A stretch of DNA of 64,000 nt from Spiractinospora alimapuensis (GTDB lineage: Bacteria; Actinomycetota; Actinomycetes; Streptosporangiales; Streptosporangiaceae). Position numbers and translations under genes: made by a program. Below are positions 24,778-29,442 of this stretch, piece after piece. Every line of letters starts with the position of its first letter. Within the stretch, counting starts at the first letter, position 1. Below the pieces are notes generated by a model that had not been told where the DNA came from, did not search any database, and saw only the letters and a program-made list of their open reading frames with translations. The DNA is taken from assembly GCF_018437505.1 (NCBI RefSeq), contig NZ_CP072467.1:4054010-4118009 (forward strand). The letters run 5' to 3'.

Positions 24778-24791
24778 AACATTCGGATGTT
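24778..24791. promoter_or_regulatory. Short palindrome in the promoter region of the TetR-led operon
   Basis: AACATTCGGATGTT is a perfect 5-base inverted repeat with a 4-base centre, in a locally AT-richer stretch 40 bases before the TetR GTG start. It could be an autoregulatory site for that TetR protein. The arms are short, so this is tentative. Confidence 0.35.
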
Positions 24792-24831: not shown

Positions 24832-25926
24832 GTGGTTCGACTGACGCGGGTTGAGCGACAAGCGCGCACACGCGCGGCGGTACTGGCGGCCGCGCGGCAG
24901 GAGTTCGTCGAATGGGGATATGGGTCCGCCCACGTCGATCGGATCGCCGAGCGGGCCGAGCTGACGCGTGGCGGGGTCTACTCGAACTTCCCGAGCAAAC
25001 GCGCTCTGTACCTGGCGGTGCTCGTCGGCCTCGTCGAGGGCGCCGGCGTCCCGTCGGTCACCGAGCCGCCGCGTTCGGTGTCTGAGGCACTTGGGGCGTT
25101 CGCCACCGCGTGGTTGGAGCGTCTCCCCCTGGGCGACGACACGGGAGACGGTCGTCTGCGCCTGCGTTCCGTCTCGCCCGTCATCGAGGACGACCGCGAC
25201 CGTCAGGTGCTCGCCCAGCTCGCGCGTTTGGAAGCGCTGCTGCTCGCGCTCGGGCTGGAAGCGTGTGAACGACACGACCCGAAGCCGCGCCGGGTGCGCG
25301 TGGCCGAACTCGCCATGGCCATGCTCACCGGGTCGAGTCTTCTGGCCGAGGTGGCGCCCGGTTTCGGCGACCCCTTCGACCGAACCGTGGCCGTGCGGCA
25401 CCTGGCGGCGCTCGAGCTGGCGGATACCTGGGAACCCGCCCACCTGCCCCACGTCGCGCCGGCCACGGTGTGTCAGGACGTGTGGGCACCCCCGACCTCG
25501 GCGGTGGATCACATCAGCGGAACCAGGGTGGACCTCGACGCGGACGGCCTCGTCGTCGTCCTTGGGCCGGCACGTCTCGAGGCGGTGGAGGAAGCGGTCC
25601 GCTCCGCTCGTGGCGCGGAACCCGTCACGGTCGCCATCGTCACCAGCGACCCGATCGAGACGGGCGACCTCGTGCGGCTCCGCGTCAGTGACGTGATCTC
25701 GTGCGCCCGCCGCGTGTTCCCAGCCCAGACCTGGGCACCCCTGAGGCTGGTCATCGACGACGCGGCTCGGATCGCCACGGCTCTCGGCGTGGCGGCCATC
25801 GACGACCAGGTCGAAGCGGCGGCGCGTATCCGCGGGGGCGCCATCGTCGCCCGGGCGGAGGGCTATGGAGCCGCCCACGCCGCGGCGACCACCGACCAGG
25901 ACGCGCGAGGGAAGCCGGCGAGATGA
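24832..25926 (+). CDS. TetR-family regulator with an extra C-terminal domain
   Basis: The protein has 364 residues, nearly twice the usual TetR length. Residues about 1-55 are the helix-turn-helix (RAAVLAAARQEFVEWGYGSAHVDRIAERAELTRGGVYSNFPSKRALY). A helical ligand domain follows to about 200. Residues about 220-350 form an extra alpha/beta domain (GTRVDLDADGLVVVLGPARLEAVEEAV, TVAIVTSDPIETGDLVRL, LRLVIDDAARIATALGV). The GTG start has GGGAGGAG upstream. It heads an operon with a winged-helix protein, a histidine phosphatase and a PEP-synthase-like protein, and probably regulates it. Confidence 0.85.
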   Translation: MVRLTRVERQARTRAAVLAAARQEFVEWGYGSAHVDRIAERAELTRGGVYSNFPSKRALYLAVLVGLVEGAGVPSVTEPPRSVSEALGAFATAWLERLPLGDDTGDGRLRLRSVSPVIEDDRDRQVLAQLARLEALLLALGLEACERHDPKPRRVRVAELAMAMLTGSSLLAEVAPGFGDPFDRTVAVRHLAALELADTWEPAHLPHVAPATVCQDVWAPPTSAVDHISGTRVDLDADGLVVVLGPARLEAVEEAVRSARGAEPVTVAIVTSDPIETGDLVRLRVSDVISCARRVFPAQTWAPLRLVIDDAARIATALGVAAIDDQVEAAARIRGGAIVARAEGYGAAHAAATTDQDARGKPAR

Positions 25927-25977
25927 CGCCTCCGCCCCCTCGTCCTGTGCCACCAACGACCTCTCGAGGCGAACACG

Positions 25978-26628
25978 ATGAGTACTGATCACTCCACCCT
26001 CCCGGCGGCGTGGGAGTCCCGGGACGAGTCGCACCTGCTGCGCGCGGTGCGGCTCGCCGGATTCGCCGACACCGAGGCGGTCGCCGACCGTTGCGACCGC
26101 CCAGCCAGCGTCGTCGGTGACGCGCTGCGCGGCCTCGAAGGGCGTCGCCTGATCGAGCGCATGACCTTCGCCGACGCGGGTGGATGGATACTCACGGAAG
26201 CGGGGAAGGCCCGTGACCTCTCGTTGGTCCAGGAAGAGCTCGCGGTCTCCGGAGCGCGGTCCGTGCTCCAAGCCACGGCCGACGTCTTCGAAAGCACGGT
26301 CAATCACCGCCTCGTCCGGACGATCACCGAGTGGCAGTTGCGCCCACCCACGGGCCAGGAGGACGGGACGGAGGAGGTCCTACGGCGACTGACGGACGTG
26401 GCCGAGACTCTACGGGACCTCATGGCCGACCTCGTCGACGCGCTGCCTCGGTTCGGTCGCTACCCCCGGCAGTTCTCGGCGGCCCTGGCCAAGGCGCGCG
26501 AGGGCGACGACCAGTGGGTGGCCGGCGTGGGCCGGCTCTCCTGCCACGTGGTGTGGGCCGAACTCCATGAGGACCTGCTGTCCAGTCTTGGTCGGGGCCG
26601 CTCCGCGGAGCCCCGAGGAGGTCGGTGA
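25978..26628 (+). CDS. Winged-helix (MarR-like) DNA-binding protein
   Basis: The protein has 216 residues. Residues about 18-75 fit a winged helix-turn-helix (HLLRAVRLAGFADTEAVADRCDRPASVVGDALRGLEGRRLIERM...GWILTEAGKARD). The rest is helical, possibly a dimer or ligand domain. Its stop overlaps a GTG of the next gene as GTGA. A second regulator inside the operon suggests that the operon senses a small molecule or its phosphorylation state (inference). Confidence 0.7.
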   Translation: MSTDHSTLPAAWESRDESHLLRAVRLAGFADTEAVADRCDRPASVVGDALRGLEGRRLIERMTFADAGGWILTEAGKARDLSLVQEELAVSGARSVLQATADVFESTVNHRLVRTITEWQLRPPTGQEDGTEEVLRRLTDVAETLRDLMADLVDALPRFGRYPRQFSAALAKAREGDDQWVAGVGRLSCHVVWAELHEDLLSSLGRGRSAEPRGGR

Positions 26629-26630
26629 CC

Positions 26631-27236
26631 ATGCCCACCCGCACCGTCTACCTCGCGCGGCACGGGTCGGCCGACGCGTGGGGCCGGTTGACCGACGAGG
26701 GCCGCGAACAGTCCCGGTTGCTCGGCCAGCGGCTCGCGCGGCTGCCCATCGACGTAGTGTGGCACTCCCCGTTGCCCCGGGCGGTGGACAGCGCCCGGAT
26801 CATCGCGGCGGAGATGGGCCGCGTACTGGTCGACGAGGCCGCGGAACTCGTCGACCATGTCCCCTTCGTCCCCTCCAGCGACGACATCTCCGCCTCCTGG
26901 CTGGGGTTCTTCGACGGCTACGACCGCGCCGAGGCCGACGCCGGCCGAAGGACGGCGGACGGGCTGGCGGCCCGGTTCGGCGCACCAACCCGGCGTGCGC
27001 GGCGCCCCACCCACGAGGTGGCGGTGACGCACGCCTACCCGATCGCGTGGATGGTGCGCGACGCGCTCGGCGCCCCACCGGCACGATGGATGGCACTGGC
27101 CGGTATCGCCAACACGGGGCTCACGGTCGTCGAACACGCCGATGGGGAACCTCCCGCGGTGGTGATGGTCAACGACATGTCCCACCTCCCGACCGAACTA
27201 CGGTGGACGGGCTTCACGGGTGGGAGACCGCTGTGA
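26631..27236 (+). CDS. Histidine phosphatase superfamily protein
   Basis: The protein has 201 residues. The catalytic RHG motif is YLARHGSA at the N-terminus, followed by LTDEGREQSRLLGQRL, the phosphate-pocket Arg in SPLPRAVDSARII, and a second His in VAVTHAYPIAWM. The family transfers phosphate through phosphohistidine. An ATG at 26631 is chosen because the AGGAGG is 9 bases away; a GTG at 26625 overlaps the previous stop. Its own stop overlaps the GTG of the PEP-synthase-like gene. Confidence 0.88.
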   Translation: MPTRTVYLARHGSADAWGRLTDEGREQSRLLGQRLARLPIDVVWHSPLPRAVDSARIIAAEMGRVLVDEAAELVDHVPFVPSSDDISASWLGFFDGYDRAEADAGRRTADGLAARFGAPTRRARRPTHEVAVTHAYPIAWMVRDALGAPPARWMALAGIANTGLTVVEHADGEPPAVVMVNDMSHLPTELRWTGFTGGRPL

Positions 27237-28489
27237 ACGTCGTGGACCTCGCCGACGCCGATCCCGCGACCGCTGGCGGCAAGGCCGCGCCGCTGGCCGA
27301 ACTGACGCGGGCCGGCTTCGACGTGCCGCGAGGCTTCGTGGTGCCGGCCGGCGTGTACCGAGCCGCGGCGGCGGCGCTCGGTATCGCCGAACTCTCCGTC
27401 GATCACGCCGCCGAGGCCCGGGCGCGCGTTCGCGACTTCCGGCTCCCGAACGAGGTCGTCGACGACGTCTCCCTGGCGCTGGAGCGCCTGACCGACGGGG
27501 CGACGACCGACCGTGTCGCCGTTCGTTCGTCCTCGATCACGGAGGACGGACGGGAGGCGTCCGCCGCGGGCCAGCACGACAGCGTCCTCGCCGTGCGCGG
27601 AGCGGAGCGGGTGTGCGAAGCGATCCTCGAGTGCTGGGCGTCGCTGTGGACGAAGCGGGCTGTCGGCTACCGGGCGCGACAGGCCAGCCGGGACCCGGAC
27701 CCGAACGCGTTCGCCACGGCGGTACTGGTGCAACGGTTCGTCGACGCCGACGTCTCGGGAGTCATGTTCACCGGAGCCGCCAGCGTGATCGAAGCGTCAT
27801 GGGGAGTGGGAGAGCCGATCGTCGCCGGCCAGGTCACCCCCGACTCCTGGCGAGTCGGGGACTCCGGGATTCTTGAGCGCCGGCCCGGCGTCAAGACCGA
27901 GCGCGCCGATCGAGACGACGCCCGTCTCGTCACCCGACCCGTAGTCGTTCCGGAACGGACCCGGTTGTCCCTCACCGACGCCGAGGTCCTGCGACTCCGG
28001 GCCCTCGGAGACCAGGTCTCCACCACTCTGGGCGGACCCCGGGACATCGAATGGGCCAGCACGGCGGATACCACCTGGCTCCTTCAGGCCCGACCCGTGA
28101 CCGTGCCCGTGCCGGATTCCACGGCGCGGCCCCACCAGCCCGCCGGCCCCACCGCCCTCACCGGAGTGCCGGCCAGCCCAGGAACCGCGTCCGGACCAGT
28201 GCGCGTCGTGCGTGGACCCGCCGACTTTCCGAGGGTGCGCCCCGGCGACGTTCTCGTCTGCCGTGCGACGGACCCGGCGTGGACACCCCTGTTCATGGTG
28301 GCTTCGGCCGTGGTGACCGAGACGGGCGGGGTGCTCTCCCACGCGGCCATCGTCGCCCGGGAGGTCGGGATACCCGCCGTCTTGGCCGTCCCTGAAGCGA
28401 CCCAACTCCTCACCACCTCGTCCACCGCCACCGTCGACGGCCACACCGGCGAAGTGACGACGGATTCCCAGGCCCCGGGGGCGGTGTAG
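27233..28489 (+). CDS. Short PEP-synthase/PPDK-like phosphotransferase lacking an acceptor domain
   Basis: The protein has 418 residues. Residues 1-290 form the ATP-grasp domain of PEP synthases (GGKAAPLAELTRAGFDVPRGFVVPAG, VAVRSSSITEDG, VLVQRFVDADVSGVMFT, ending in WLLQARPVTV). Residues about 310-410 are the swivelling phosphohistidine domain with His370 in TETGGVLSHAAIVAREVGIPAVL. The TIM-barrel that binds pyruvate in full-length enzymes is missing, and so is the rifampicin-binding domain of rifampicin phosphotransferases. It may phosphorylate a partner protein or an unknown small molecule. It is coupled to a histidine phosphatase gene. Confidence 0.82.
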   Translation: MNVVDLADADPATAGGKAAPLAELTRAGFDVPRGFVVPAGVYRAAAAALGIAELSVDHAAEARARVRDFRLPNEVVDDVSLALERLTDGATTDRVAVRSSSITEDGREASAAGQHDSVLAVRGAERVCEAILECWASLWTKRAVGYRARQASRDPDPNAFATAVLVQRFVDADVSGVMFTGAASVIEASWGVGEPIVAGQVTPDSWRVGDSGILERRPGVKTERADRDDARLVTRPVVVPERTRLSLTDAEVLRLRALGDQVSTTLGGPRDIEWASTADTTWLLQARPVTVPVPDSTARPHQPAGPTALTGVPASPGTASGPVRVVRGPADFPRVRPGDVLVCRATDPAWTPLFMVASAVVTETGGVLSHAAIVAREVGIPAVLAVPEATQLLTTSSTATVDGHTGEVTTDSQAPGAV

Positions 28490-28542: not shown

Positions 28543-29442
28543 TCAGGTCTCTGGGTTCAGCATCGTGGCCGCGGTCGCCATGTCCGCCTCGGTGCGGGTT
28601 GTCAGGGCGTAGAGGGCGAAGCCGATGGGGGAGGCCTCCCACAGGTGGCGGGCTTGGGCGGCCAGGCCGGAGTGGACGTGTCCGCCGGCCTCCGCGTAGG
28701 CGTCCAGGGTGACCCCCAGCATCTTCTCGCCCGCGGCACCGTACTGCGCGGACAGGTCCCGGGCCGGGTCGTCCACGCGCGCGGTCGTCCAGTCCAGGAC
28801 ACCCGTGATCGCGCCGTCGTCGGCGAGCAGGACGTGCGCGGGGTAGATCTCCCCGTGGGTCATGACGGTCCGCTCCGGCCAGCAGAGGTCGTCGGCCAAC
28901 CACGCCTCCCACGCTTCCGACAGGGCGGGCGCGACGGTGAACTCCGAGCCAACCCGCGCGATGTCGTCACGCCACGCCTGCCGCACCCGCTCCGGCGTAC
29001 GGACCTCGACCCCGGCGGCCTCGGCCCGCTCAGGCGTGACGGCGTGCAGGCGCGCCAACAGACGCCCAAGGCGGGCGGCGTAGTCCGGGCAGGCGGGGTC
29101 CATGTGCCACACGGGCTCCCCGGCGTCGGTGAGGGTCAGGCCAGGGGCACCATGCAGGGCCGGATAGGCGACCAACTCCGCCGTACGAACCCGCCAGTCC
29201 GGCACCGCGACCCCATCAGCGGCCAGAACCGGACCCACCAAGTCAAGGACCCGCACCTCTGCGGCCATACCGTCCCCAACATCCCCCCGACGCGGCACCC
29301 GCAACACCCACCGGCGCCCACCCTCGTCAGCGGCCATGACGACCCGATAGTCCAAGCCGGCCTCGATCAACACGGCGCCCTCGACGGACAGGTGGAGGCC
29401 GCGGGCGGCGGCCAGAGCGATGACGTCCTCGATCGTGTTCAC
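28543..29442 (-). CDS. Macrolide 2'-phosphotransferase-like antibiotic kinase (APH family)
   Basis: The protein has 299 residues. Features of the aminoglycoside/macrolide kinase fold are present: an ATP-binding N-lobe (RWVLRVPRRGDV), the catalytic loop VMTHGEIYPAHVLL and the metal-binding GVLDWTTARVDDPARD. Overall layout, including NTIEDVIALAAARGLHL at the start and the LRVPRR-x-DV segment, fits Mph enzymes, which inactivate macrolides by phosphorylating the 2'-hydroxyl. The start is a GTG at 29442. It is common in soil actinobacteria. Actual resistance depends on expression. Confidence 0.85.
   Translation of the reverse strand: MNTIEDVIALAAARGLHLSVEGAVLIEAGLDYRVVMAADEGGRRWVLRVPRRGDVGDGMAAEVRVLDLVGPVLAADGVAVPDWRVRTAELVAYPALHGAPGLTLTDAGEPVWHMDPACPDYAARLGRLLARLHAVTPERAEAAGVEVRTPERVRQAWRDDIARVGSEFTVAPALSEAWEAWLADDLCWPERTVMTHGEIYPAHVLLADDGAITGVLDWTTARVDDPARDLSAQYGAAGEKMLGVTLDAYAEAGGHVHSGLAAQARHLWEASPIGFALYALTTRTEADMATAATMLNPET

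Follow-up and report, generated by a model that had tools for sequence, protein, structure and literature searches.

Positions 24,832 to 28,489 of a 64,000-nucleotide stretch of the Spiractinospora alimapuensis chromosome (NZ_CP072467.1, positions 4,054,010 to 4,118,009; hereafter the window) carry four genes, encoding a TetR-family regulator, a winged-helix protein, a histidine phosphatase and a dikinase devoid of acceptor domain. This cassette is a counterpart of the VadK-Rv1126c pair of Mycobacterium tuberculosis, derived from phosphoenolpyruvate (PEP) synthase and equipped with a phosphatase. VadK had been presented as a single odd kinase whose mode of action was unclear; it now becomes part of a system more widespread in actinobacteria, where acceptor-less dikinases of two different origins have winged-helix partners from a single family. 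New with respect to VadK are the independent derivation from PEP synthase, the linked phosphatase, and the TetR regulator with its conserved upstream palindrome. A first-pass annotation, made from the letters of the window, had seen here an undescribed phospho-relay or antibiotic/metabolite phosphorylation cassette. The idea of a phospho-cassette holds up, as do the acceptor-less architecture and the conserved linkage, but "undescribed" stands only in part: VadK, already published, is a PPDK-derived enzyme that shows this two-domain layout and, judging by synteny, has a winged-helix partner of the same kind (PMC13400623).

An acceptor-less dikinase of the PEP synthase branch

The four open reading frames are adjacent on the forward strand, as first annotated (Table 1). 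The TetR and winged-helix genes are separated by 51 bases. The phosphatase and dikinase genes share the sequence GTGA at 27233-27236; this coupling, already noticed in the first pass, is real, and a 4-base overlap is also kept in three related loci (L039, L040 and L123).

Pfam detects in the dikinase a PPDK_N (ATP-grasp) domain followed by a PEP-utilizers mobile domain (swivelling-His domain), and the protein ends there; no conventional acceptor domain is present, as had been proposed. Its best NCBIfam match is PEP synthase, with 302 bits over one continuous alignment (residues 6-411 against 13-463 of 798). The pyruvate phosphate dikinase (PPDK) match reaches 48 bits, the rifampin phosphotransferase (RPH) profile matches in two stretches only, and a profile search of solved structures agrees with the PEP synthase affinity. 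The single continuous match indicates that the protein has the domain order of PEP synthase with the C-terminal domain missing. The dikinase differs from PEP synthase (PpsA), its best continuous match, by the loss of the C-terminal PEP/pyruvate-binding domain and by a Leu in place of the regulatory Thr that precedes the catalytic His in PEP synthase and PPDK. It also differs from RPH, whose related ATP-grasp and swivel domains are separated by a rifampin-binding domain that is lacking here.

Residues K17, R98, E273, Q285, R287 and His370 are invariant across 16 relatives. His370, which had been singled out as the phosphorylatable residue, is the His of the catalytic motif (TETGGVLSH370AAIV; codon 28340-28342). 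When aligned to VadK it coincides with the motif His of that protein, and K17, E273, Q285 and R287 also align; R98 is misaligned in this three-sequence alignment, though invariant in its own family. The two proteins thus have in common an ATP-grasp and a swivelling-His domain, no acceptor domain, a conserved catalytic His and the key ATP-site residues. In contrast, VadK derives from PPDK, whereas the window dikinase lacks the VadK-type motif SVRSG...SMPGMM and belongs to the PEP synthase branch. The two-domain, acceptor-free layout of the window dikinase is kept in its relatives. Fusions between dikinase and winged-helix protein were not seen; the large open frames returned by the searches were, by inspection, antisense or neighbouring-frame artefacts.

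Linkage of winged-helix and dikinase genes

With the winged-helix protein as query, 155 of the 297 genomes of the host's taxonomic family proved to contain relatives. Sixty of these loci (8.5-16.5 kb each), picked by hand across the ranked list and not at random, were scanned with profiles of the window families and with one VadK-type sequence. An acceptor-less dikinase lies near the winged-helix gene in 57 of the 60 loci, being of the PEP synthase type in 33 and of the PPDK type in 24; two separately derived truncated dikinases therefore share one partner family. The winged-helix and dikinase genes often overlap or nearly touch. A histidine phosphatase of the window family is present in 37 loci and a TetR gene of the window type in 20. 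PEP synthase-type dikinase genes are as a rule transcribed away from the winged-helix gene, and the phosphatase gene comes next to them downstream, while those of the PPDK type usually lie directly downstream of the winged-helix and TetR genes. The linkage of winged-helix and dikinase genes is not due to chance, and the association of the four genes in relatives, which the first pass had singled out for checking, is conserved far above chance expectation.

Sampling across the phylum gave 29 further winged-helix loci; 12 of them have a dikinase gene within 1.5 kb (2 of the PEP synthase type, 10 of the PPDK type), and two more have a swivel domain with no dikinase match. More distant members are often found with no dikinase gene next to them, and the winged-helix family thus extends beyond the cassette system. 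Members free of dikinase occur near a dapA-type gene (L182), an RNase J gene (L185, L186) and a D-ala-D-ala ligase gene (L187). At L180 (8692-9114, reverse strand, a frame of 141 amino acids) and L183 (8606-9352, reverse strand), a stand-alone swivelling-His domain is encoded directly upstream of the winged-helix gene on the same strand; no ATP-grasp neighbour was detected, and the motifs are GGILTH and GGILSH. A third layout is found at L240, L247 and L255, where the winged-helix gene comes immediately after a PEP synthase-type dikinase gene of the same orientation, with no phosphatase gene in the stretch read.

The exact winged-helix, phosphatase, dikinase order of the window occurs in Brevibacterium sandarakinum (L039) and in a Propionibacteriales metagenome-assembled genome (L040), with 67-84% identity. 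These cassettes resemble that of the window more closely than do any of the relatives encountered within the host's own family, whereas the closest relatives of its TetR protein (about 67%) are the TetRs of VadK-type operons in that same family. The cassette may therefore be a mosaic. None of the genes around it has a counterpart in the surroundings of the loci sampled.

Correspondence with VadK and Rv1126c

VadK (Rv1127c), described in 2026, is a PPDK without the pyruvate/PEP domain that autophosphorylates on His422 and that the bacterium requires to grow on carbon sources yielding propionate (PMC13400623). PrpC and PrpD were recovered with it in pull-downs, and the authors prefer a model of competition binding, built on methylcitrate synthase. 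Co-expression of its operonic partner Rv1126c increases VadK solubility; Rv1126c is retained on VadK, and a 2 M NaCl wash was used during purification to part the two proteins (PMC13400623). A literature search on winged-helix proteins and truncated PPDK gave nothing relevant.

The second, PPDK-type dikinase of the 60 loci is VadK. The gene order at a mycobacterial locus (L192) is WS/DGAT-like, winged helix, VadK-type dikinase, DUF222, amine oxidase and ScfRs (PrpR-like), and the genome has a PE_PGRS gene beside it. The VadK-type protein encoded there contains AVFASWNSP, the peptide of a published rv1127c primer, and GAASHAAVVSREL, which equals the published mutagenesis primer except for the intended His-to-Ala change. 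From this gene order and these peptides, the winged-helix gene of L192 is the counterpart of Rv1126c by synteny. A published M. tuberculosis rv1127c primer had no match in 248 genomes of the genus of genome G446, and the orthology of Rv1126c rests therefore on synteny and on the peptides. On these grounds Rv1126c would belong to the winged-helix family of the window, and the operon partner of the window dikinase would be of the Rv1126c family. The window cassette differs from VadK-Rv1126c by its linked histidine phosphatase and by a TetR protein with an extra domain.

The winged-helix protein

No Pfam family was found above cut-off in the winged-helix protein. Its AlphaFold2 model (mean predicted local distance difference test score, pLDDT, 90.8) shows a MarR-like winged helix-turn-helix at about residues 10-92 and an all-helical C-terminal domain at residues 94-203. 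Searches of Pfam and of solved structures, aimed at the helical domain, matched the winged helix-turn-helix part only, and full-length Foldseek matches of the GntR/FadR type were weak, with a root mean square deviation near 16, and were not trusted. Residues N109, Q120, R158, Y162, H190, W193 and H197 are invariant across 25 sequences. A tree of 84 winged-helix sequences groups them mostly by dikinase type and places the window next to L039 and L040, some deep branches being unsure. The sequence CAACANNNTGTTG is present in 15 of 30 intergenic regions between divergent winged-helix and dikinase genes; it is a candidate winged-helix operator, in loci that are possibly related.

The histidine phosphatase

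The Pfam family His_Phos_1 spans nearly the whole phosphatase (E-value 5.6e-21). The family alignment suggests that translation probably starts at ATG 26631 rather than at GTG 26625. The catalytic residues, His13 of the RHG motif (codon 26661-26663) and His136 (codon 27030-27032), are invariant, and the protein belongs to branch 1 of the histidine phosphatases. PGAM5 is the best match in the solved-structure profile search (1.4e-19), the best phosphoserine phosphatase scoring 8.9e-10; 3eoz, a putative phosphoglycerate mutase, ranks between the two (8.1e-17). PGAM5 dephosphorylates His118 of NME2 (PMC11277029). SixA, of the same superfamily, is reported to dephosphorylate the His-phosphocarrier NPr (PMC7948535) and the phosphohistidine of Ndk (PMC12934123). 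The window phosphatase shares with SixA and PGAM5 its place in branch 1 and the intact RHG and second His. Unlike them it has only a predicted substrate, and it scores 25.6 bits against the 74.5-bit cut-off of the SixA equivalog (NCBIfam TIGR00249).

The TetR regulator and the upstream palindrome

The first gene encodes a TetR protein, with TetR_N at residues 18-63 (Pfam) and the helical core. Its AlphaFold2 model (pLDDT 86) combines a TetR fold, confirmed by fold search, with a C-terminal alpha/beta domain, the additional domain that had been proposed. Sequence searches of Pfam and of solved structures returned no relative of this domain; the order of its beta and alpha elements in the model gives the impression of a thioredoxin-like fold. 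The sequence AACATNNNNATGTT, allowing up to 2 mismatches and up to 160 bases upstream, is found at 26 of the 34 TetR-type genes, window included, against 0.6 expected from shuffles; since the window itself supplied the pattern and the 34 sequences share ancestry, part of this excess reflects descent. Only two exact copies exist in the 5.86 Mb genome.

Table 1. Features of the cassette in the window.
Feature	Coordinates	Strand	Basis or remark
Candidate TetR operator palindrome AACATTCGGATGTT	24778-24791		54 bases before the TetR start
TetR-family regulator, 364 amino acids, with an additional alpha/beta domain at the C-terminus (about residues 212-343)	24832-25926	+	TetR part: fold search
Winged-helix protein, Rv1126c-like family, 216 amino acids	25978-26628	+	AlphaFold2, neighbourhood, synteny with mycobacterial vadK locus
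Histidine phosphatase branch 1, PGAM5-like	26625-27236	+	Pfam, family alignment, structure-profile search
Acceptor-less PEP synthase-type dikinase, 418 amino acids	27233-28489	+	Pfam, NCBIfam, alignment
ATP-grasp (PPDK_N) domain of the dikinase, residues 13-292	27269-28108	+	Pfam, alignment
Swivelling phosphohistidine domain of the dikinase, residues 336-406	28238-28450	+	Pfam, alignment

Acceptors and targets in the host genome

The window genome has no match to PF03972 (PrpD), PrpC not being searched, and the methylcitrate-cycle target of VadK thus appears to be missing. No stand-alone PEP/pyruvate domain was detected in the genome: PEP-utilizers_C occurs only in enzyme I of the phosphotransferase system (PTS) and in one open frame of 898 amino acids, which also matches PPDK_N and the mobile domain. 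Together, these two results make both the VadK target and a PEP domain acting in trans unlikely here. PF00391 is confined to the window dikinase, enzyme I and open frames of at least 842 amino acids. No stand-alone HpeH or PEP-acceptor subunit was thus found, PTS enzyme I being the sole shorter protein with a mobile domain. Several longer dikinase-like frames (842-1245 amino acids), one of them at genome positions 4044611-4047109, about 7 kb before the window, contain PPDK_N and the mobile domain with no PEP-utilizers_C, and are therefore not ordinary PEP synthases.

A possible reversible phosphohistidine switch

As the likeliest reading, though one whose chances we consider evenly balanced, we propose that the four genes specify a protein switch operated by reversible histidine phosphorylation. 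ATP would be bound in the ATP-grasp domain and the dikinase would phosphorylate its own His370, with release of AMP and inorganic phosphate, as the intact residues and the precedent of VadK suggest. As the dikinase lacks a domain for small-molecule acceptors, its loaded swivel domain would then dock on another protein. The winged-helix protein of the operon is the foremost candidate, since members of its family accompany acceptor-less dikinases of both kinds. This protein would receive the phosphoryl group, or the phosphorylated dikinase would hold and control it, and its DNA binding would be altered. The PGAM5-like phosphatase would strip the phosphoryl group and reset the switch, and the TetR protein, with its extra domain, would sense a ligand and control the operon via the palindrome. 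The linked phosphatase could be the missing eraser of the system. For non-pathogenic actinomycetes this predicts that the winged-helix protein is targeted or controlled by the dikinase and that the phosphatase provides the reset, which bears on how Rv1126c and VadK work together. In a bolder and decidedly more tentative version, the cassette would be a new kind of two-component signalling, in which a dikinase derived from PEP synthase or PPDK would use ATP to phosphorylate, via its swivel His, a dedicated winged-helix transcription factor with its helical domain carrying H190 and H197, a dedicated PGAM5-like phosphatase being the eraser, and which would have been built at least twice from different enzymes of central metabolism around the same regulator family.

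Several points weigh against the switch. The domain content, intact motifs, conserved linkage and conserved palindrome were directly observed, and the phosphorylation of any protein of this system is a prediction. The phosphatase is found in only 9 of the 24 VadK-type loci, and at L192, the mycobacterial locus, none turned up within about 8 kb. H190 and H197 are about equally conserved in winged-helix family members without a dikinase nearby, in a comparison that did not cover the last columns and had a few rows out of register. A role as linkage-specific phosphosites is thus not supported, and conservation does not favour the phospho-acceptor idea. The VadK target is not carried over, as seen from the missing PrpD match. 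Finally, the regulatory Thr is missing from the swivel motif GGVLSH, a trait that the HpeHI paper describes in dikinases acting on small molecules.

This last point leads to the most serious alternative, which we nevertheless regard as improbable: a small-molecule kinase cassette, in which a phenolic compound, antibiotic or metabolite, held by another protein (possibly through the helical domain of the winged-helix protein), would be phosphorylated and later relieved of its phosphate by the phosphatase. Aromatic catabolism can indeed be initiated by phosphorylation, CreHI and CreD being an example of a kinase followed by a phosphatase, and the TetR and winged-helix proteins would suit ligand-inducible regulation. 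At two winged-helix loci with VadK-type dikinases, L191 (6168-7844, reverse strand) and L194 (8015-9757, forward strand), a separate RPH-C-like protein of 560-580 amino acids with its own swivel domain is encoded, a possible acceptor subunit. The phenol, cresol and hydroxyphenylethanone dikinases and RPH use the same two domains, and HpeHI, CreHI and PpsAB share with the window dikinase the ATP-grasp and swivelling-His chemistry (PMC12167813). However, in these two-component systems the ATP-grasp domain (HpeI) is split from a subunit with acceptor and swivel domains (HpeH), whereas the window dikinase unites ATP-grasp and swivel in one chain and has no acceptor. No HpeH-type subunit emerged from the mobile-domain search of the genome, which weakens the case for an aromatic dikinase and leaves small-molecule chemistry possible. 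The genes flanking the cassette, moreover, are without relatives around the sampled loci, and the phosphatase best matches a protein phosphatase. The phosphorylation of antibiotics or metabolites considered in the first-pass annotation is therefore possible but less well supported than the protein phosphohistidine switch, since the characterised phenol and rifampin dikinases have an acceptor domain, fused or in a second subunit, and the sole characterised acceptor-less relative is a protein kinase.

The phosphoenzyme could also act as a scaffold or energy sensor that binds metabolic enzymes and modulates them without phosphate transfer, the winged-helix protein being a chaperone or co-regulator. 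The pull-down of PrpC and PrpD by VadK and the competition binding favoured by its authors fit this mode of action (PMC13400623), which we judge unlikely for the window: its genome has no PrpD match, and what both dikinase types have as conserved partner is a winged-helix protein and no metabolic enzyme. It is very improbable that the dikinase is a PEP synthase remnant working with a pyruvate/PEP-binding domain supplied in trans. It follows PEP synthase in sequence and in the order of its domains, but PEP-utilizers_C is limited to the PTS enzyme and to the 898-amino-acid frame with its own PPDK_N and mobile domains, and in relatives the dikinase travels with the winged-helix protein.

Downstream of the cassette and convergent to it, an open frame at 28543-29442 on the reverse strand of the window resembles, as judged by eye, the aminoglycoside/macrolide phosphotransferase family.

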